From a virus, in IMG/VR virus record IMGVR_UViG_3300005253_000079, positions 1-61,332 of that record: 61,332 nt of DNA; one strand, written 5' to 3'. A model generated the notes under the pieces. That model searched no databases, was not told where the DNA came from, and saw nothing but the letters and a program-made list of their open reading frames with translations. Below are positions 7,680 to 56,136 of this stretch, piece after piece. The stretch's first letter is position 1. Each line of letters starts with the position of its first letter. Position numbers and translations under genes: made by a program.

Positions 7680-8348
7680 TTACTCGATCGCTGAGCTGGG
7701 CAGTTCAACCCACGCAGCGGTGATAAATCCTGTTCCCGCAGTAGCGGGTGAAAACGCAGCCAACTGGGTTGCTCCTTCAAGTACTGGCACAAAGCCGTAC
7801 TTATCCACAGAGAACTCAGGAACAAACTGGGCAGGATTAGTTGCAGCACCAAGAAGTTGCGTAGCAATCTGATCGAAGAAGACTCCCGTTGGCACAATAA
7901 CCGTGCCGCCATCAGCACCCAAGGCCCCAATCGTACACTGACTACCGACACCGGCACTTGGACGAAGGTTGTAGGGTGTGACGGTGACGCCACCATTAAT
8001 GACACCACCTGCGCCATAGAGAAGAACAAGACCCGTTTCACCTACAGCACCCATGCCGACAAATGCAGTAGCAAAGTAGACAGGGAGACAGGTCACATTC
8101 GCCGGAATAGTCTGAAGCCAATCAAACTCGTCAAGGTCAATTACACCAGCCCCAAACGTGCCGACGGCAGTTATGGTTGCGCTAGCAGAACCAACCTGGG
8201 CACCGAACATACGACCTTCTAGGCAGAGAGCCTGAAGCCAGGGCAGTGCCATATAAGAGCCATCGCGTGAAATACGCATTCCTCGCTCTGTACCATCCGA
8301 CGCTCGGCTAACGCTCTGTTGCTGAACAAAGCCGTGTTGGTTTGACAT
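7680..8348 (-). CDS. Virion protein, paralogue B of a tandem pair
   Basis: 222 residues, the same length as and clearly homologous to the product of 8428-9096. Shared blocks are GFVQQQSVSR, WLQALCLEGRMFGAQ, FVPVLEGA/YVPVLEGA and a WxELPSSAI end. The family is not recognised. The beta-rich composition and operon position suggest a structural or decoration protein. ATG 8348 has an AAAGGGG site. The duplicated gene pair keeps similar leader sequence (TAGAAAGG) upstream of both starts. Confidence 0.7.
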   Translation of the reverse strand: MSNQHGFVQQQSVSRASDGTERGMRISRDGSYMALPWLQALCLEGRMFGAQVGSASATITAVGTFGAGVIDLDEFDWLQTIPANVTCLPVYFATAFVGMGAVGETGLVLLYGAGGVINGGVTVTPYNLRPSAGVGSQCTIGALGADGGTVIVPTGVFFDQIATQLLGAATNPAQFVPEFSVDKYGFVPVLEGATQLAAFSPATAGTGFITAAWVELPSSAIE

Positions 8349-8427: not shown

Positions 8428-9096
8428 TTAAGAAATGGCAGAACTCGGCAACTCGGCCCACATAGAGGTTAGATACCCCGTACTGGCCTGGCCGTTTGCG
8501 TACATAGCCAACTGCACTGCGCCCTCAAGCACCGGAACATAGCCACATTTCGTTACTGAGAACTCAGGAACGTACTGCTGCGAGGTACCTGCGACACCAG
8601 TGAGCGCCGTAGTAACCTGCTCATAGATAACGCCAGCAACTACAATAATCGTACCGTCGCCATCGTCAAGTGCCGTAACCGTACAATTAGTCGAGTTGCT
8701 TGAACTGGGGCGCATGTTAAACGGCACGAGCGTAATGCTTGTGCCTGCAACGCCCCCAGATCCCCAAACGACGTGGATACCGGCCTCGGCTGCTGTACCA
8801 ACAGCGAGGAACGCTACTGACATATAGACAGGAAGAATGGTCGTATTTACGGGAATAACGTGAAAGTAGTCGAACTCGACTAGCGAGACCGAACCTGCAC
8901 CAAACGTACCTGCACCGACGGGGTCGGTCGTGGCATCGCCGCACTGAGCACCAAACATCCGGCCTTCCAAGCAAAGCGCCTGGAGCCACGGAACCTGGAT
9001 GACGGACCCGTCACGGGTAATACGAATCCCCCGAGACGTGCCGTCTGAGTGTCGGCTAACACTCTGTTGCTGAACAAAACCAACTTGATCAGCCAT
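8428..9096 (-). CDS. Virion protein, paralogue A of a tandem pair
   Basis: 222 residues, roughly half identical by eye to its neighbour at 7680-8348, with conserved ends and a more divergent centre (residues about 60-160). Tandem duplication followed by divergence is the simplest explanation. The two may form a hetero-oligomer, for example alternating positions of a head-fibre or decoration layer. The ATG is preceded by AAAGGAG. No enzymatic motif is visible. Confidence 0.7.
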   Translation of the reverse strand: MADQVGFVQQQSVSRHSDGTSRGIRITRDGSVIQVPWLQALCLEGRMFGAQCGDATTDPVGAGTFGAGSVSLVEFDYFHVIPVNTTILPVYMSVAFLAVGTAAEAGIHVVWGSGGVAGTSITLVPFNMRPSSSNSTNCTVTALDDGDGTIIVVAGVIYEQVTTALTGVAGTSQQYVPEFSVTKCGYVPVLEGAVQLAMYANGQASTGYLTSMWAELPSSAIS

Positions 9097-31749: not shown

Positions 31750-31758
31750 ATTATTAGC

Positions 31759-31821
31759 AGGGACACAGGATTGCATCCCCCTCTGTGTTAGGTGACACTA
31801 GCACGGCGATCCTGTGTCCCT
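31759..31821 (+). ncRNA. Predicted structured RNA element R2 (13-bp stem)
   Basis: AGGGACACAGGAT (31759-31771) and ATCCTGTGTCCCT (31809-31821) are perfectly complementary around a 37-base loop that holds a GTGT/ACAC mini-stem. It ends 21 bases before the next start codon and has no U-tract. Likely a leader element or mRNA-processing structure. Confidence 0.55.
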
Positions 31822-31842
31822 CCTACATACACGGAGGCGACC

Positions 31843-34852: not shown

Positions 34853-35018
34853 AGGTTGGTATACTCAAGTCTTATCCAAGGGGGAAGCGGAGTATTTCCC
34901 TGGTAGACTAGGCTAATGGCTCCATGCCATATTGTCTGATAATATAAGTGGAGACGTAAGCCTTATAAGCTGCTATATGAAACGTCATCTCTTGGGTAAG
35001 GCTTGATTATACCAACCT
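34853..35018 (+). ncRNA. Large multi-branched RNA element R3
   Basis: Arms 34853-34880 and 34991-35018 pair over 28 positions with only one mismatch and two G.U pairs. Inside are three further helices: GGGAA/TTCCC (34882-34900), AGAC/GTCT (34905-34937) capped by ATGGC/GCCAT, and GACGT/ACGTC (34953-34986). The 166-base segment is free of plausible coding. A four-way junction closed by a long stem suggests a stable regulatory or decoy RNA. It does not match any RNA family I can identify by eye. Confidence 0.65.
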
Positions 35019-35031
35019 AGTATAGTATAAC
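35003..35031 (+). promoter_or_regulatory. Promoter overlapping the 3' arm of R3
   Basis: TTGATT (35003-35008), 17-base spacer, TATAAC (35026-35031), 15 bases before the swivel-domain start. The -35 lies within the 3' arm of R3, so the RNA and the promoter share sequence. Confidence 0.5.
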
Positions 35032-35045
35032 AGGAGGTAGCTGTC

Positions 35046-35393
35046 ATGCCAGTCAGTAACAAACTAATAGGAAGAGCAGCCAGTCCAGGTATAGTACAGG
35101 GAGAGGCGTTTGTTGTTGAGTTACCCAAGACTAAGGGATTCCCTAGTAATGGAGCAGTGCTAGTGTCGCATATGACGACACCTGATCTCCTACCTGCAAT
35201 GTTAAAGTCAACTGCTATTGTTACTCAAGTAGGGGGTATAACCTGCCATGCTGCTATAGTAGCTAGAGAGTTTAGCATTCCCTGCGTTGTTGGAGTTAGG
35301 AAACTACTAGATAGGGTGAAGACAGGAACAAGGCTGATAGTAGACGGGAGCAAAGGCACAGTCGAAATCGTAGAAATCGTCGAGTCGTCATGA
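35046..35393 (+). CDS. Stand-alone PEP-utilising-enzyme swivel (phosphohistidine) domain
   Basis: 115 residues that are almost exactly one mobile domain: GRAASPGIVQGEAFVV, GAVLVSHMTTPDLLPAM, then the signature QVGGITCHAAIVAREFSIP with the phospho-acceptor His at residue 68, and a C-terminal DGSKGTVEIVE strand. In pyruvate phosphate dikinase, PEP synthase and rifampin phosphotransferase this domain carries a phosphoryl group between two catalytic domains. Those partner domains are absent here. It starts after the full start cassette. A host phosphotransfer partner or a swivel used in trans is inferred. Confidence 0.85.
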   Translation: MPVSNKLIGRAASPGIVQGEAFVVELPKTKGFPSNGAVLVSHMTTPDLLPAMLKSTAIVTQVGGITCHAAIVAREFSIPCVVGVRKLLDRVKTGTRLIVDGSKGTVEIVEIVESS

Positions 35394-35557
35394 CTGAGCT
35401 ATTGCTAGTGCTGGCTGTCGCCTTTACGGTGGGCCACGTCATTGTAGACACCCATCGTATCAGACACATACACGAGCTGATACCTGCGGGCCTCCTAATC
35501 GGACATATCATATTTACAGGTGAACTAGCTCGGTGGCTGAGTTATATACCTTACTAA
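35390..35557 (+). CDS. Two-span membrane peptide (55 aa)
   Basis: ATG 35390 overlaps the swivel-gene stop (ATGA). Hydrophobic segments LLLVLAVAFTVGHVIV and LIPAGLLIGHIIFTG flank a His/Arg-rich loop (DTHRIRHIHE). Coupled translation with the swivel protein suggests the two act together, perhaps at the membrane. Confidence 0.6.
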   Translation: MTELLLVLAVAFTVGHVIVDTHRIRHIHELIPAGLLIGHIIFTGELARWLSYIPY

Positions 35558-35574
35558 CTTACTAACTTACTAAC
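35551..35574. repeat. Three tandem TTACTAAC repeats
   Basis: Three perfect 8-base copies span the stop codon of the membrane-peptide gene and the leader of the next gene. They give stops in several frames and may be a binding site or slippage product. Confidence 0.6.
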
Positions 35575-35594
35575 TGAGAGGAGTGGACATAATC

Positions 35595-36617
35595 ATGACC
35601 ACTAAGGTTAGAAAACCAAAGTCGGCGAAGAAGACGAAGGATGCACCTAGTGGCTCGGTAGGTGGTACATATGCTATGCCTATGACTATGCCTATGCCTG
35701 TGCTGCCCTCTTATCCTTCAATCGGGGGTAACTTCATTGATGCAGTGTTACCTAAGCCTAAGCCTAAGCCTAAGACTAAAGCTAAGACTAAGACTAAAGC
35801 TAAGACTAAGATTGATGTGACACTAACACCACCCGTTGCGTGTGACATCCCGGATTGCTCGGTGTGTAAGCAAGCAGGGGCCAAAGGTGCAAACCTCTCA
35901 ATCCGATCATACCCTAAAGCTTTGAGGACTGATATCGGTCTCCTTAACGAGCTTCCACTAGCCATGCATGCTGCTGACTTCTACCTACGCATGGCAATGA
36001 CAGTCCAGGGCAGGGGCGATCTTAGAGCTGGGCTAGAGTACCACGCAAACATGCTCGCGTCTGAGTTCTGTCGATACTTGAAGATAGCAACAACAGGAGA
36101 AGCGCGTCATGTATTTGGTCACGCAAATGTGAGTTCTCTAAGATATTATGGCAAGCATATGAAGGTAAAGGGCAATTATCCAGGGTTTATATCTTTCATT
36201 AGGCGTCTGGATATGATGACTTATACCGTAGCGAGAGTTGGCCGTGGTCAGGTATACAGAAACGCTGATAATATATGGGAGGGCTACGGAAAACTAGCTC
36301 CTCTATACCTTATGTTTATCTTTACGAGGCCTTCATGGAACAAAGGCTATGGAGGAGAGAAGTGGGGTCTATGTCTCAAAGTGCTTATGAACTACCTGCG
36401 AGGAAGACTCACTCCTATTGCATTTGTTGATCAGGCGTTCTCTCTTGAGCATAACGGGAGTATAGTGTACGACAAGACCGGCTGGAACCTGACTGGCCTC
36501 AAAAGAGTTCTTACCCGAGCACAGACAGGCTCATACAAATCTATAGCTGATAACTATGCTTCGAGTGATGTTGCTAAGATGTGGTATGATCACAAGGGCG
36601 GAGGTAAGAAAACATGA
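35595..36617 (+). CDS. Basic protein of unknown function upstream of the phosphatase (340 aa)
   Basis: ATG 35595 follows GAGAGGAG. The N-terminus is basic, followed by a Met/Pro repeat and ten alternating Lys-Pro/Lys-Thr/Lys-Ala pairs encoded by a hexamer array. A DIPDCSVCKQAG Cys pair follows. The remaining 240 residues are helical and Tyr/Trp-rich (LEYHANMLASEFCRYLKI, FTRPSWNKGYGGEKWGLCL). No family recognised. The stop overlaps the phosphatase start by four bases, so the two proteins probably work together. Confidence 0.6.
   Translation: MTTKVRKPKSAKKTKDAPSGSVGGTYAMPMTMPMPVLPSYPSIGGNFIDAVLPKPKPKPKTKAKTKTKAKTKIDVTLTPPVACDIPDCSVCKQAGAKGANLSIRSYPKALRTDIGLLNELPLAMHAADFYLRMAMTVQGRGDLRAGLEYHANMLASEFCRYLKIATTGEARHVFGHANVSSLRYYGKHMKVKGNYPGFISFIRRLDMMTYTVARVGRGQVYRNADNIWEGYGKLAPLYLMFIFTRPSWNKGYGGEKWGLCLKVLMNYLRGRLTPIAFVDQAFSLEHNGSIVYDKTGWNLTGLKRVLTRAQTGSYKSIADNYASSDVAKMWYDHKGGGKKT
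35751..35810 (+). repeat. Hexanucleotide (N)CTAAR array inside the 340-aa gene
   Basis: Ten consecutive hexamers, four CCTAAG followed by ACTAAR/GCTAAG variants, encode alternating Pro-Lys, Thr-Lys and Ala-Lys. The array probably expands and contracts by slippage and forms a flexible basic tether. Confidence 0.8.
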
Positions 36618-37624
36618 TCCAAAGAAAGATAATGTTCGACGGTCATGCTCCTCGATGGTGGAATAAGAGGAACAGACGACTACGCAGGAAGTATGAGAAA
36701 GACGGGGATATTAGTAATGACAACAGCGGTAAGGGAGGCTTTGTTAGTAAGCTGACAGATAAAGTAACAGGTTTCATTGGAGGAGGCTACCATTATAGGT
36801 CATGTGATCACTGGCGGACTGTTGTTAAGATTGGGGACAGTCATATCTTAGCAAGTGGGTTAATGGACCGGCCTAAACACCCGTTTGTGATGCCTGGACC
36901 TAAGCCCTGGCCCGACAAGGGCTTATACCTAGACGACTTATGGTCTCGACAATTAGGGGGTATATCATCGGCTGGAGTTAAGTGCCCGATCGATCCCTGG
37001 TGGCCGTATGTCATAGTTGATTGGAGTGATCGTGCAGCCATTGATGATAAGTGGTACACGCTGATTGTAAACCTGATCATCAAGTGGATGAAGTCAGGGG
37101 ATAAGGTAGAGATAGCCTGTCAGGGCGGACACGGACGTACTGGTACGCTGGTTGCAGGCGTGTTAGCTAAGGTCGAGGGCCTGTCTGCTAATGACGCTAT
37201 AGAGGCTCTGCGTGATAGGTACTGTAAACAAGTTGTCGAGTCTCACTCTCAGATATGTCAAATATACCGCTTCTTAGGCGAGAAGGAGCCAGATAAGCCG
37301 CCTATTGTACCGGCTACACCCTACTATATCGCGTTCGGGTATAAGCCACCACCAAGTAAATCTTATTTCCCGACGGGAGATACCGATCGTAAAGAGAGAC
37401 TAACAGGAGGGGTGAATAGGAAGGAAGGAACGTCAATCACAAAAAAACACGACCAGTATTATGGTAGTGACGATGATGATGATGAGTGTTTCTGTCGGCA
37501 CGACCGATGGAACCATTGGGGAGGAGGTGATGGTGTATGTAAGATGTGTCCCGCTGCGGGTGGTCAAGCCTGTAATAAGTTTAGGCTTATAGACCGCCTG
37601 ACTAATAGACCACGCTTATATTAA
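36614..37624 (+). CDS. Cys-based protein-tyrosine/dual-specificity phosphatase-like protein with zinc tail
   Basis: 336 residues. The C-x5-R loop is CQGGHGRTG (C169 to R175), followed by TLVAGVLAKVEGLSANDAIE and a helix, as in tyrosine phosphatases. The basic N-terminus (WWNKRNRRLRRKYEK) may bind nucleic acid or membrane. A DDDDDECFCRHDRWNHW...CKMC tail looks like a zinc-binding module. It could dephosphorylate protein, RNA 5' ends or phospholipid. The general-acid Asp cannot be fixed by eye. It is coupled to the 340-aa gene. Confidence 0.75.
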   Translation: MIQRKIMFDGHAPRWWNKRNRRLRRKYEKDGDISNDNSGKGGFVSKLTDKVTGFIGGGYHYRSCDHWRTVVKIGDSHILASGLMDRPKHPFVMPGPKPWPDKGLYLDDLWSRQLGGISSAGVKCPIDPWWPYVIVDWSDRAAIDDKWYTLIVNLIIKWMKSGDKVEIACQGGHGRTGTLVAGVLAKVEGLSANDAIEALRDRYCKQVVESHSQICQIYRFLGEKEPDKPPIVPATPYYIAFGYKPPPSKSYFPTGDTDRKERLTGGVNRKEGTSITKKHDQYYGSDDDDDECFCRHDRWNHWGGGDGVCKMCPAAGGQACNKFRLIDRLTNRPRLY

Positions 37625-37646
37625 CGTTAGTATAGGAGGAGACAAA

Positions 37647-37961
37647 GTGACTAGAAGAATAGATCTGTTTGTAACAGTTGACAAGACCGGAAGCAAGGGT
37701 GGAGGGGTTGCTAATTTTAGTGCCTCTATCACATCGGGCTCCTTTCCCGAAGGAGAGGTAAGTCTAGCCCGAAAGCCGGACCATTGTTTCTTTGGTCTTG
37801 CCAATCTAGAGTCCCATAAGGGTCATGCGCCCAACTTTGCAACAAAGGCAGACTTGCAGGGATACATAGACCGTGTTAAGAAGTCTGTCGATAGCCTAGT
37901 CGAAGACTATCTTGACGCTGTCAATGTTGGGCCTACCCTGCTGAGTAGCTGGGAGATTTAG
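37647..37961 (+). CDS. Hypothetical protein (104 aa)
   Basis: GTG 37647 after GGAGGAGACAAA. A beta-rich start (RRIDLFVTVDKTGSKGGGV) is followed by a helical end (LQGYIDRVKKSVDSLVEDYL). It closes the swivel/phosphatase module before R4. Not recognised. Confidence 0.55.
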   Translation: MTRRIDLFVTVDKTGSKGGGVANFSASITSGSFPEGEVSLARKPDHCFFGLANLESHKGHAPNFATKADLQGYIDRVKKSVDSLVEDYLDAVNVGPTLLSSWEI

Positions 37962-37970
37962 TCTATAGTA

Positions 37971-37987
37971 TAGTCTAGTATAGACTA
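37971..37987. promoter_or_regulatory. Palindrome TAGTCTA-gta-TAGACTA
   Basis: Perfect 7-base arms in the gap after the 104-aa gene. CTAGTATAGACTAGAGC (37975-37991) is shared, apart from a 3-base indel, with 49225-49244 at the later promoter, suggesting a common operator. Confidence 0.4.
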
Positions 37988-37988
37988 G

Positions 37989-38162
37989 AGCGAGGGGTTC
38001 ACCTCTCGCTTGGAGGACCGGAAGGTAATTGTTAGTCAACGCATCACCACAACCAATCTCGTAGCTCTGTCAACGCTAACGTGTGCTGAGTTAGGATATG
38101 GCGACGGGGCATACGTTAGTATAAGGGTTCCCCGACTAGCAGGTTGCTTCCGATCCTCCAAG
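37989..38162 (+). ncRNA. Structured RNA element R4 with upstream hairpin
   Basis: A 9-bp hairpin, AGCGAGGGG-TTCA-CCTCTCGCT (37989-38010), leads into a long closing stem of 16 bases (38009-38024 with 38147-38162) with one mismatch. CAACC (38050-38054)/GGTTG (38142-38146) stacks directly on it, and two hairpins lie inside: CTAAC/GTTAG (38076-38094) and CGGGG/CCCCG (38105-38134). It is free of plausible coding. No terminator U-run is seen. Similar in plan, not in sequence, to R3. Confidence 0.55.
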
Positions 38163-38193
38163 TAAGAGGTGAATAGGTTATAAGGAGGGTGCG

Positions 38194-46647: not shown

Positions 46648-47574
46648 ATGACTGACTCGTGGCATAGCTACCCATCCGTCTACGCTCTAGGACACAGCGC
46701 CTTAGTCGGACTATTAGAAGGTGATGTTGTTGTCCAGGAGAAGATAGACGGCTCACAGTTTAGCTTCGGAATCATTGACGGTGAGCTTAAGGTCAGGTCT
46801 AAGGGCAAACTCATGGAGATTGACGCTCCTGAGAAGATGTTTGCAGGAGCTGTCAAGACAGTCAAGAACATAGCTAGTGATCTAATACCTGACTGGACGT
46901 ATAGGGCTGAGGTCCTATCGAAGCCTAAGCACAACGCCTTGAAGTATGATCGTGTACCAGAAGGGAACCTTATCCTCTTTGACATCAACATTGGGCTTGA
47001 AAAGTACAAGAGGCCGTCTGGACTTGCGAAAGAGGCTCATCGTCTAGGTCTTGAGTTTGTTCCAACGTTCTATAGTGATGATGGTGTTAGCATAACAATA
47101 GACGTGATCACCGAGTTCCTCCTCGAGGATTCCTGCCTCGGTGGCACGAAGATCGAAGGCATAGTCATAAAGAACTATAGCCGCTTTGGTAAGGACAAGA
47201 AGGTCCTCATGGGCAAGTACGTCAGTGAAGCCTTCAAGGAAGTCCATAGGACGGCATGGAGTAAGGCTAACCCTCACGCTAAGGACATTGTGCAGTCACT
47301 AGTCGAGACCTATCGGACAGAGTCAAGGTGGCAGAAGGCTGTGCAGCACCTGCAAGAACGGGGTGAGTTGGAAGGCAGCCCACGAGATATAGGTAAGTTG
47401 ATCAAGGAGACCCAAGAAGATATATACAAAGAGAGCAGTGATGATATTAAGTTTGCGTTGTTCGTATGGGCTTGGCCTAAAGTGCAGCGAGCTGTCATTG
47501 CCGGTCTGCCTGAGTGGTACAAGGAAAGTCTGTTAGCGAAGCAGTTTGAGTCGGAGGAAGATACAGATGCCTAA
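46648..47574 (+). CDS. RNA ligase, Rnl2-like
   Basis: 308 residues. The nucleotidyl-transfer Lys is K32 in EKIDGSQFSF (motif I). Motif III-like TYRAEVL, motif IV EGIVIKNY (170-177) and motif V VLMGKYV follow. The C-terminal helical part (DIVQSLVETYRTESRW) is longer than the adenylation core. These enzymes seal nicked RNA or tRNA. No polynucleotide kinase/phosphatase partner is recognised here, so its substrate may be a phage RNA or a host tRNA repaired by others. Confidence 0.9.
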   Translation: MTDSWHSYPSVYALGHSALVGLLEGDVVVQEKIDGSQFSFGIIDGELKVRSKGKLMEIDAPEKMFAGAVKTVKNIASDLIPDWTYRAEVLSKPKHNALKYDRVPEGNLILFDINIGLEKYKRPSGLAKEAHRLGLEFVPTFYSDDGVSITIDVITEFLLEDSCLGGTKIEGIVIKNYSRFGKDKKVLMGKYVSEAFKEVHRTAWSKANPHAKDIVQSLVETYRTESRWQKAVQHLQERGELEGSPRDIGKLIKETQEDIYKESSDDIKFALFVWAWPKVQRAVIAGLPEWYKESLLAKQFESEEDTDA

Positions 47575-54564: not shown

Positions 54565-55420
54565 GGACGTAAGATCTAAGTATGGTGCTGTAGACGGATC
54601 GAAGCTGAATGGTGCACCTCCTATCCTCCCCTTTAGTATAAGCGTAGAGGGTCAAGAAGGAACTGGCAAATCACAGTTTGGCCTACTCACCTGCCCAACA
54701 CCGATCGTCCATATAAACTTCGGTGACAGAGACGCTACTGCCTTTCTCTATGATATGTCTGAGGATCGTAGATCTAAGACCACTCTCTACTCTTTCGCAC
54801 CGTCTGGTCCGGATGGTTGGACCCGTGCTGAGGCAAAGCAGTCTCTTCTAGGACTCAGTGATATTGCTAAGTCAGAACTAGCTGATAACAAACTAGCTGG
54901 CGGTACGTTTATACTGGACTCTGGATCGTCATGGTGGGACTCAGTACAAGAGGTTTATGTAGCGCCTCTTGAGGAGGAACGTGACGCAGAAGGCAAGAAG
55001 AGGTCTGGCGGGCTGATCTATGGCAAGGGCAACCTGGTCGTGTCTGGTGTTGTGTCTTGGATCAAGAACCAGGGCTGTTTCTTTGTCCTGACACATCAGA
55101 AGTCTCAGTCATGGGACTCACAGGGGCCAATACCCGGACAATATAAAGCCCGTATTAACTCTAAGGTTCCCTACCTAGTAGAGATTAGACTAGACTTGCG
55201 GCTTGAATGTGTATCCTGTGCTGTTAAATCACCTATAGTTGGTGAGCAGGATTGTCGTAAGCAGGGGCATATTGGTAGGAACCACGTTGCTAGGATTATC
55301 AAGTTTGGCCGATCAACTGCACTAATAGGAGTTGAGTTTTCAAATAGCGATATATCGTTTAGCAATATATACTCCCTGTATGCGAGGGGTGATTTCCCTG
55401 GGCAAGAGAGGTTAGTATGA
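54557..55420 (+). CDS. Sak4/RecA-like ATPase
   Basis: TTG 54557 with GGAGGG at about eight bases is preferred; ATG 54539 is an alternative. 287 residues. Walker A EGQEGTGKSQF, a Walker B-like GTFILDSGSSWW, and FFVLTHQKSQSWD resemble Sak4-type single-strand annealing or recombinase ATPases. A Cys group (LECVSCAVKS, QDCRKQGH) sits in the C-terminal part. It would work with the Cas4-like nuclease in phage recombination. Confidence 0.8.
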   Translation: MSEDVRSKYGAVDGSKLNGAPPILPFSISVEGQEGTGKSQFGLLTCPTPIVHINFGDRDATAFLYDMSEDRRSKTTLYSFAPSGPDGWTRAEAKQSLLGLSDIAKSELADNKLAGGTFILDSGSSWWDSVQEVYVAPLEEERDAEGKKRSGGLIYGKGNLVVSGVVSWIKNQGCFFVLTHQKSQSWDSQGPIPGQYKARINSKVPYLVEIRLDLRLECVSCAVKSPIVGEQDCRKQGHIGRNHVARIIKFGRSTALIGVEFSNSDISFSNIYSLYARGDFPGQERLV

Positions 55421-56136
55421 GTGGGCCGTTAGTTATAGTCGATGATCGAGAGCCTTCTAATGCGGTTGATAGACTACAAGCATACGGACTACAAGCAATC
55501 TCGGGCCGACTAGAGGCTGGCGACTATACATTCTATCCGCATGGGCTTACCGCAATCATAGAGCGCAAGACTATTTCTAACTTACTCCAGTCCCTATCGG
55601 ACAAGCAGATGGTAGCTCAGGCACATAGGATGGTTGATATAGGAGACATCTCCTTCCTCTTACGCGAAGGAGCCTTTCGTCGATCACCAGGCGGTGCAGT
55701 AGAATACTACTCACCTAAAGACCCACGACAGGTCGATAGTTGGGTGCTGTCAGGCTGGTCGTGGGATAGCTTCCAGGGCATGATGCTAGACCTACAACTC
55801 ATGGGCATTAGAATTACCGACTGCCCTGTTCTCGGTGAATACCCATCAGAAGTAGCCCGACTAGTGATAAACCTATCAAAAGATGAGCATAGATGGATTA
55901 GGGAGCGTCAGCGTCCTGATGTCACTGTGATCGATCCACAGTACAAAAACGCCCTATGGTCATTAAGTGCCTTCACAGGTATAGGTCCAGGGACAGCCGA
56001 GGCGTTGCTTAGTAGTTTAGGGTCGATTAAGGCTATCAGTGATGCAGACGTAAAGGAGTTACAGAAGGCGGATGGAGTGGGTCCTAAGCTGGCACAGTCG
56101 CTCTATGATGAGATGAGGGAAGAATGGCGGGCGTGA
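55417..56136 (+). CDS. ERCC4/XPF-type nuclease with HhH domain
   Basis: 239 residues. DDREPS (9-14), GDYTF (35-39) and IERKT (48-52) are the ERCC4 active site; the position usually Asp in ERKxxxD is Asn here. The C-terminal FTGIGPGTAEALLSSLGSIK and ADGVGPKLAQSLY form a helix-hairpin-helix pair. It cuts branched or flapped DNA in family members. Confidence 0.9.
   Translation: MSGPLVIVDDREPSNAVDRLQAYGLQAISGRLEAGDYTFYPHGLTAIIERKTISNLLQSLSDKQMVAQAHRMVDIGDISFLLREGAFRRSPGGAVEYYSPKDPRQVDSWVLSGWSWDSFQGMMLDLQLMGIRITDCPVLGEYPSEVARLVINLSKDEHRWIRERQRPDVTVIDPQYKNALWSLSAFTGIGPGTAEALLSSLGSIKAISDADVKELQKADGVGPKLAQSLYDEMREEWRA

Follow-up and report, generated by a model that had tools for sequence, protein, structure and literature searches.

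What might a free phosphohistidine swivel domain, an all-helical protein of 340 amino acids (aa; hereafter f340) and a cysteine phosphatase accomplish side by side in a phage genome? The question is raised by the viral record IMGVR_UViG_3300005253_000079, a linear and possibly incomplete record of 61,332 bases that was analysed over its full length (the window). A preliminary description of this DNA had proposed a module dealing in phosphate, bracketed by two large structured RNAs (R3 and R4), and all the features it named, i.e., the swivel, a membrane peptide, the 340-aa protein, the phosphatase, R3 and R4, were recovered from the sequence and its list of open reading frames (ORFs) (Table 1). 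We consider it about an even chance that these genes represent a conserved phage phosphotransfer cassette, in which the swivel would deliver phosphate, f340 would hold its acceptor and the phosphatase would reverse the transfer, the window carrying a minimal form.

The evidence bearing most directly on such a cassette is the gene set and its order in other phages. Among isolated phages, tblastn matches to the swivel, the 340-aa protein and the phosphatase converge on the same genomes, and in Rhodobacter phage RcZahn, Vibrio phages Ares1 and V-YDF132, Stenotrophomonas phage Summit and Rhizobium phage RHph_TM16 the genes are ordered as a protein resembling pyruvate phosphate dikinase (PPDK), small ORF(s), a DSP/PTP-type phosphatase (PTP), a protein of ~340 aa and usually a second PTP (a single one was found in Ares1). 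The block lies upstream of DNA polymerase in these five genomes and downstream of terminase in most of them. Two alignment scans of IMG/VR provided 135 and 103 confirmed relatives, and all loci were subjected to profile searches and then counted non-redundantly. The order in this main lineage is a PPDK-like kinase (ATP-grasp and swivel domains), a CsrA-like ORF, PTP, f340 and again PTP, with the kinase and the upstream PTP each present in 51 of 51 loci, the CsrA-like ORF in 48 of 51 and the downstream PTP in 67 of 67. The swivel (inside the ATP-grasp kinase), f340 and PTP are contiguous and co-oriented in every main-lineage relative that could be tested, which bears out the proposed phosphate module. 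The name “CsrA-like” derives from a PF02599 match in one member (4e-4, below the cut-off) and from the published CsrA annotation in phage J26. Records of isolated phages with f340 comprise 33 from Vibrio, four from Stenotrophomonas, two from Rhizobium and one from Rhodobacter, and the counts of the PPDK-like kinase are identical in these groups; the kinase additionally occurs in Bacillus phage G and in unannotated records (gut, Listeria and Enterococcus), which are possibly bacterial DNA. In phage G, gp139 (L188:7881-8978) is a minimal ATP-grasp and swivel protein of 371 aa adjoining an FtsZ-like gene, and no f340 was found near it within the 18 kb read. A genome scan added four loci in bacterial metagenome-assembled genomes with the same block, likely phage sequence, and two unusual carriers of f340.

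Given that dozens of phages, distantly related to one another, have retained the cassette as a unit, it is very likely that the swivel, f340 and the phosphatase work together. The locus had earlier been regarded as an accessory system; in the main lineage it looks instead like a core gene block, beside terminase, DNA polymerase and portal. It had also been thought that no described phage carries this set, and this is true of the system rather than of its parts: no paper describing the cassette as one system was found in the literature searched, but its components have been deposited in many phage genomes, each under a name of its own (“PPDK”, “tyrosine phosphatase”, “thymidylate synthase” or “hypothetical”). 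Viewing them as one cassette, which spans phages of several proteobacterial hosts and many metagenomic viruses, links these scattered and partly doubtful labels (a glycolytic enzyme, a thymidylate synthase and a hypothetical protein).

The kinase offers the first clue to the chemistry. All 37 of the phage PPDK-like proteins scanned contain the PPDK_N and PEP-utilizers (swivel) domains, none of the 37 contains the C-terminal phosphoenolpyruvate (PEP)/pyruvate domain, and similarity to TIGR01828 stops at position 523 of 865; another acceptor site is therefore needed. The catalytic histidine is present in all listed swivels save one split ORF pair (in L021), and the CX5R signature in 175 of 179 PTP matches, the exceptions being short or truncated ORFs. 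Owing to this almost complete conservation, the kinases and phosphatases of the cassette are probably active enzymes.

A candidate for holding the acceptor, or for being it, is f340, as it is a conserved partner that can be fused directly after the swivel. The window protein is a divergent member of phrog_20946, its sole profile match and a family for which no function is annotated; no Pfam or NCBIfam model matches it. The preliminary description had called for a structure prediction and had listed a lysine-repeat basic protein. The lysine repeats exist, but as a tail at the N terminus of f340 rather than as a separate protein, and in the AlphaFold2 model this tail is of low confidence, whereas the folded core (about residues 110-335) is all-helical and mostly above a pLDDT of 90. 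A main-lineage model is nearly all helix as well (mean pLDDT 95.3). Fold searches of the PDB with the window and main-lineage models returned no match (best E 1.3 and 0.57, with low TM-scores), and the BFVD matches are four unnamed viral proteins only. The best PDB sequence match, an annexin, was rejected as a relative (E 1.2, i.e., chance). Across 78 aligned sequences ten columns are invariant, among them E169, G253, G254, W257, D279, H286, N287 and K294 (window numbering), and R171 and H172 are nearly so. Judged from these comparisons, f340 defines a large phage protein family without a solved relative. A search of plasmids gave no f340. The family is nonetheless not confined to phages: in chromosomal proteins of actinomycetes (L178:6762-8957, from Umezawaea endophytica, and L187:652-2835) an f340-like domain precedes a cyclophilin-type prolyl isomerase domain, the latter confirmed by Pfam in L178. 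In a viral contig (L167:3438-15062), residues 1509-1580 of an open frame of 3,874 aa match part of the f340 core (E 1.4e-15), and that record has no ATP-grasp or swivel match.

The third component had been described as a Cys-phosphatase-like protein, rightly so: it has the CX5R[TS] signature within a PTP domain (C169-R175), and its C-terminal tail contains cysteine as well. The best Pfam matches are DSP/PTP phosphatases (PF00782, PF22784 PTP-SAK and PF22785 Tc-R-P), with which it shares CX5R, although its DSPc match lies about one bit under the curated Pfam cut-off and it belongs to a phage family of its own, phrog_17568. Alignment with isolated phages identifies it as the counterpart of the downstream phosphatase of the cassette (PTP2). 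The PHROG name of this family, “thymidylate synthase”, appears doubtful, since its members here bear the CX5R phosphatase signature; the label has been propagated to several phage records.

In the window itself, the free swivel reported earlier is confirmed by its motif TQVGGITCHAAIVAR, in which the catalytic His68 (codon 35247-35249) and Thr66 are conserved. Its closest solved structures are the swivel domains of PEP synthase and rifampin phosphotransferase (RPH), and by sequence it is nearest to that of PEP synthase. The ORFs for the swivel, the 55-aa peptide, f340 and the phosphatase are contiguous on the plus strand, with good Shine-Dalgarno sequences before the three larger ones. The tight linkage asserted for the set holds for the swivel, f340 and phosphatase, whose order is conserved in relatives, but not for the 55-aa peptide, which is not conserved among them. 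No ATP-grasp match (PF01326) was found at E<=1 across the whole, possibly incomplete record, in a search that detected its positive controls, and the CsrA-like ORF and second PTP of the main lineage are likewise missing from the window. The f340 gene adjoins a CX5R phosphatase and the block includes a phosphohistidine swivel in free form; as the ATP-grasp kinase is lacking, we class the window as a reduced variant and not as a full member.

A DNA-level search in phages for relatives of the window gave nothing, and IMG/VR scans with single proteins (phosphatase or swivel) confirmed no close one; the nearest are the loci L096 to L109, mostly at 23-29% identity, among which L102-L105 are near-copies of L101 and L109 is a near-copy of L108. 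Two of them (L096 and L098) match the window in having a free swivel (108-127 aa), then f340, then PTP, with no ATP-grasp in either record. In L106, by contrast, ATP-grasp, swivel and f340 are fused, in this order, into one chain of 796 aa, and the others (L097, L099-L105 and L107-L109) have f340 and PTP only. Judging from its gene content, the window is the minimal form of the cassette (free swivel, f340, PTP), and the free-swivel form would be a natural stripped-down version in which f340 and the phosphatase, as the core pair, stand apart from the kinase.

Alongside the gene set and order, the fusion and the active-site residues directly support a cassette; from these we infer the phosphorelay, its direction and the role of f340 as follows. 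In the full form, the ATP-grasp domain would place a phosphate from ATP on the swivel histidine, the swivel would hand it to an acceptor that the helical f340 binds or presents, f340 thus acting as does the acceptor-binding domain of RPH-type dikinases, and one or two DSP/PTP phosphatases would remove or process the phosphate. As the ATP-grasp part is missing in the window, the phosphate on its His68 would have to come from a host kinase, from an unlinked one or, through back-transfer, from a phosphorylated compound. Dikinases with split ATP-grasp and swivel parts are established biochemically: in RPH (PMC4844700) and HpeHI (PMC12167813) phosphate loaded at the ATP-grasp site travels on the swivel to an acceptor domain of unrelated origin, and the parts can be split. 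A swivel protein of the HpeHI type can shuttle phosphate between acceptors without an ATP-grasp partner (PMC12167813). Like the cassette, RPH and other small-molecule dikinases combine an ATP-grasp domain, a phosphohistidine swivel and a separate acceptor-binding part and have no PEP/pyruvate barrel, and the acceptor-binding part of RPH had no structural homologue when it was solved; the window shares with these enzymes a swivel bearing the catalytic histidine. Unlike in RPH, the presumed acceptor part of the cassette stands alone as an all-helical protein from a different family (no PDB structure matches the fold of f340, the rifampin-binding domain of RPH included), phosphatases are part of the block, and the window has no ATP-grasp. 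The HpeHI, CreHI and PpsAB systems resemble the cassette in that the kinase is split over polypeptides, the ATP-grasp being separable from the swivel, and HpeH alone moves phosphate between substrates, but there the swivel is fused to a substrate-binding domain, whereas the window swivel is free beside f340, phage-borne and accompanied by no phenolic pathway. PPDK and PEP synthase have ATP-grasp and swivel domains homologous to those of the full cassette kinase, from which they differ by their PEP/pyruvate-binding domain, the window retaining the swivel only.

Several observations weigh against this phosphotransfer reading. The window and its nearest relatives are without an ATP-grasp domain, and at least seven records of the window type (possibly fragments) have f340 and PTP with no detectable swivel, so that these two proteins may have a job independent of it. 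Full-length phage kinases carry 180+ aa after the swivel motif, partly a C-terminal tail, and this stretch, not f340, could be the acceptor domain. Finally, f340 co-diverges with the kinase (r 0.82) only a little more closely than with DNA polymerase (0.78; partial correlation 0.53), and such mirror-tree signals mostly reflect vertical descent and add little beyond shared ancestry. More tentatively, we postulate that the cassette is an undescribed phosphorelay in which f340 founds a new acceptor or catalytic fold taking the phosphate of the swivel histidine and, with the dedicated phosphatase, modifies a target specific to the phage or the host, such as a regulatory protein, DNA or the ends of RNA; the version in the window would draw on host phosphate without an ATP-using domain of its own. 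Whatever its target, the cassette offers a testable set: a kinase, dedicated phosphatases and a protein whose fold has no counterpart in the PDB.

The strongest competitor, which we consider rather unlikely, is a protein-phosphorylation switch, i.e., a regulatory circuit and not small-molecule chemistry, in which the kinase or swivel phosphorylates f340 or another phage or host protein and the DSP/PTP enzymes reverse this. PTP and DSP enzymes usually act on proteins, f340 is flanked by two of them in nearly all main-lineage loci, and the sub-threshold CsrA-like gene would fit regulation. Moreover, a threonine two residues before the catalytic histidine is a regulatory phosphorylation site in PPDK and PEP synthase (PMC12167813), and this residue is kept in the window as Thr66. 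However, no kinase for the threonine was recognised nearby, L096 has leucine at this position, and the invariant E, D, H, N, K and GG-W residues of f340 resemble a binding or active site more than a passive target.

We regard it as improbable that the free window swivel is a decoy, competing with or draining host PEP synthase, PPDK or phosphotransferase system enzyme I and thereby diverting host phosphate. Its closeness to the PEP synthase swivel and the lack of an ATP-grasp partner in the record would suit a decoy; yet the free swivel adjoins f340 and PTP where it was found (L096 and L098), and as the main lineage fuses the swivel to its own ATP-grasp, the ancestral role was likely with a phage kinase.

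The hairpins R3 and R4 had been presented as large structured RNAs bracketing the module, and the genes and RNAs together as one ribonucleoprotein system. The hairpins as such are well founded: both fold far better than shuffled sequences (z -7.1 for R3 and -4.7 for R4, none of 200 shuffles doing as well), no other inverted repeat in the 61 kb scores as high (28 and 26, the next being 17), and both flank the module. The third-strongest, a hairpin with 20-bp arms (31755-31825), lies near the switch from minus-strand structural to plus-strand early genes. Of some ten window-type loci, just one or two have a comparable hairpin nearby: a 118-nt hairpin in L106 (10553-10670; 28-bp stem, z -7.5) lies 184 nt after PTP, in an R4-like position, and a 27-bp inverted repeat in L107 (6501-6801) lies upstream of f340, but the latter encloses a 69-aa ORF, differs in kind from R3 and R4 and could be a small mobile element. 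When genes and flanking RNAs were sought in other phages, the genes were found together and the RNAs were not. No hairpin of this type stands beside the cassette in L096, L098, L100, L101 or ~80 main-lineage loci, and pattern scans of IMG/VR gave zero matches for R3 and, for R4, three single-arm matches taken as chance and no convincing homologue. As relatives carry the cassette without such hairpins, these are not constitutive parts of it, and a joint ribonucleoprotein system is very unlikely; R3 and R4 are real sequence features and at most local regulators. Rfam returned nothing at gathering score for the window, R3 or R4 (at E<=10 just one chance-level 18-nt match beside R4), and on window-type loci only the tRNAs of L108; a sub-threshold match of the L106 hairpin to a microRNA-type RNA was discarded, as it reflects merely a long hairpin. 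Intrinsic terminators (not called by a terminator scan) and mobile elements (each is single-copy and, by eye, without flanking target duplication) were likewise rejected as identities of R3 and R4.

Least credible of all is a boost to host PEP/pyruvate metabolism, as published for Vibrio phage homologues on the basis of glycolytic PPDK annotations (PMC12038007 for phage J26; PMC9229204) and of PEP docking into residues 524-691 of the J26 kinase (PMC12038007), a region for which no family match was found (the overlap with real PPDK is reported in that paper for residues 1-527), since phage “PPDK” lacks the PEP/pyruvate domain, the window lacks any ATP-grasp, and the reaction has no role for f340 or the PTPs. 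The glycolytic auxiliary metabolic gene label is thus doubtful, and the recurring claim of auxiliary metabolism for phage PPDK is called into question.

Table 1 Coordinates of the features in and around the putative cassette of the window
Feature	Positions	Strand	Evidence or remark
R3 hairpin, 28-31 bp basal stem	34853..35018	+	just upstream of the swivel Shine-Dalgarno
Free phosphohistidine swivel domain, 115 aa	35046..35393	+	PF00391 E 1.5e-25; phrog_18609 kinase (swivel part)
Hydrophobic peptide, 55 aa	35390..35557	+	overlaps swivel stop codon (ATGA)
f340, 340 aa: Lys-rich tail and all-helical core (~35922-36599)	35595..36617	+	phrog_20946 E 3.5e-9
DSP/PTP-type phosphatase, 336 aa, CQGGHGRTG (Cys169, Arg175)	36614..37624	+	DSPc E 9.3e-8; phrog_17568 E 7.8e-15
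104-aa protein	37647..37961	+	homologue between PTP and f340 in L097
R4 hairpin, 40-bp imperfect stem (arms 80%)	~37997..38174	+	follows the 104-aa ORF, ahead of the next gene

Owing to the position of its homologue, the 104-aa protein is possibly an optional member of the module. Models of anti-phage defence (PADLOC) matched none of the window proteins, and one relative had a chance-level Cas10 match (0.004). A 346-bp near-perfect inverted duplication near a contig end in L075 (14448-15143) may stem from faulty assembly or mark a genuine hairpin end. Elsewhere in the window we observed in the structural region two tandem paralogues (7680-8348 and 8428-9096), each of 222 aa and almost the same at their starts, an RNA-ligase-like protein (46648-47574; phrog_548, 3e-24) and an ERCC4/helix-hairpin-helix nuclease protein (55417-56136; Pfam) of XPF-like architecture.

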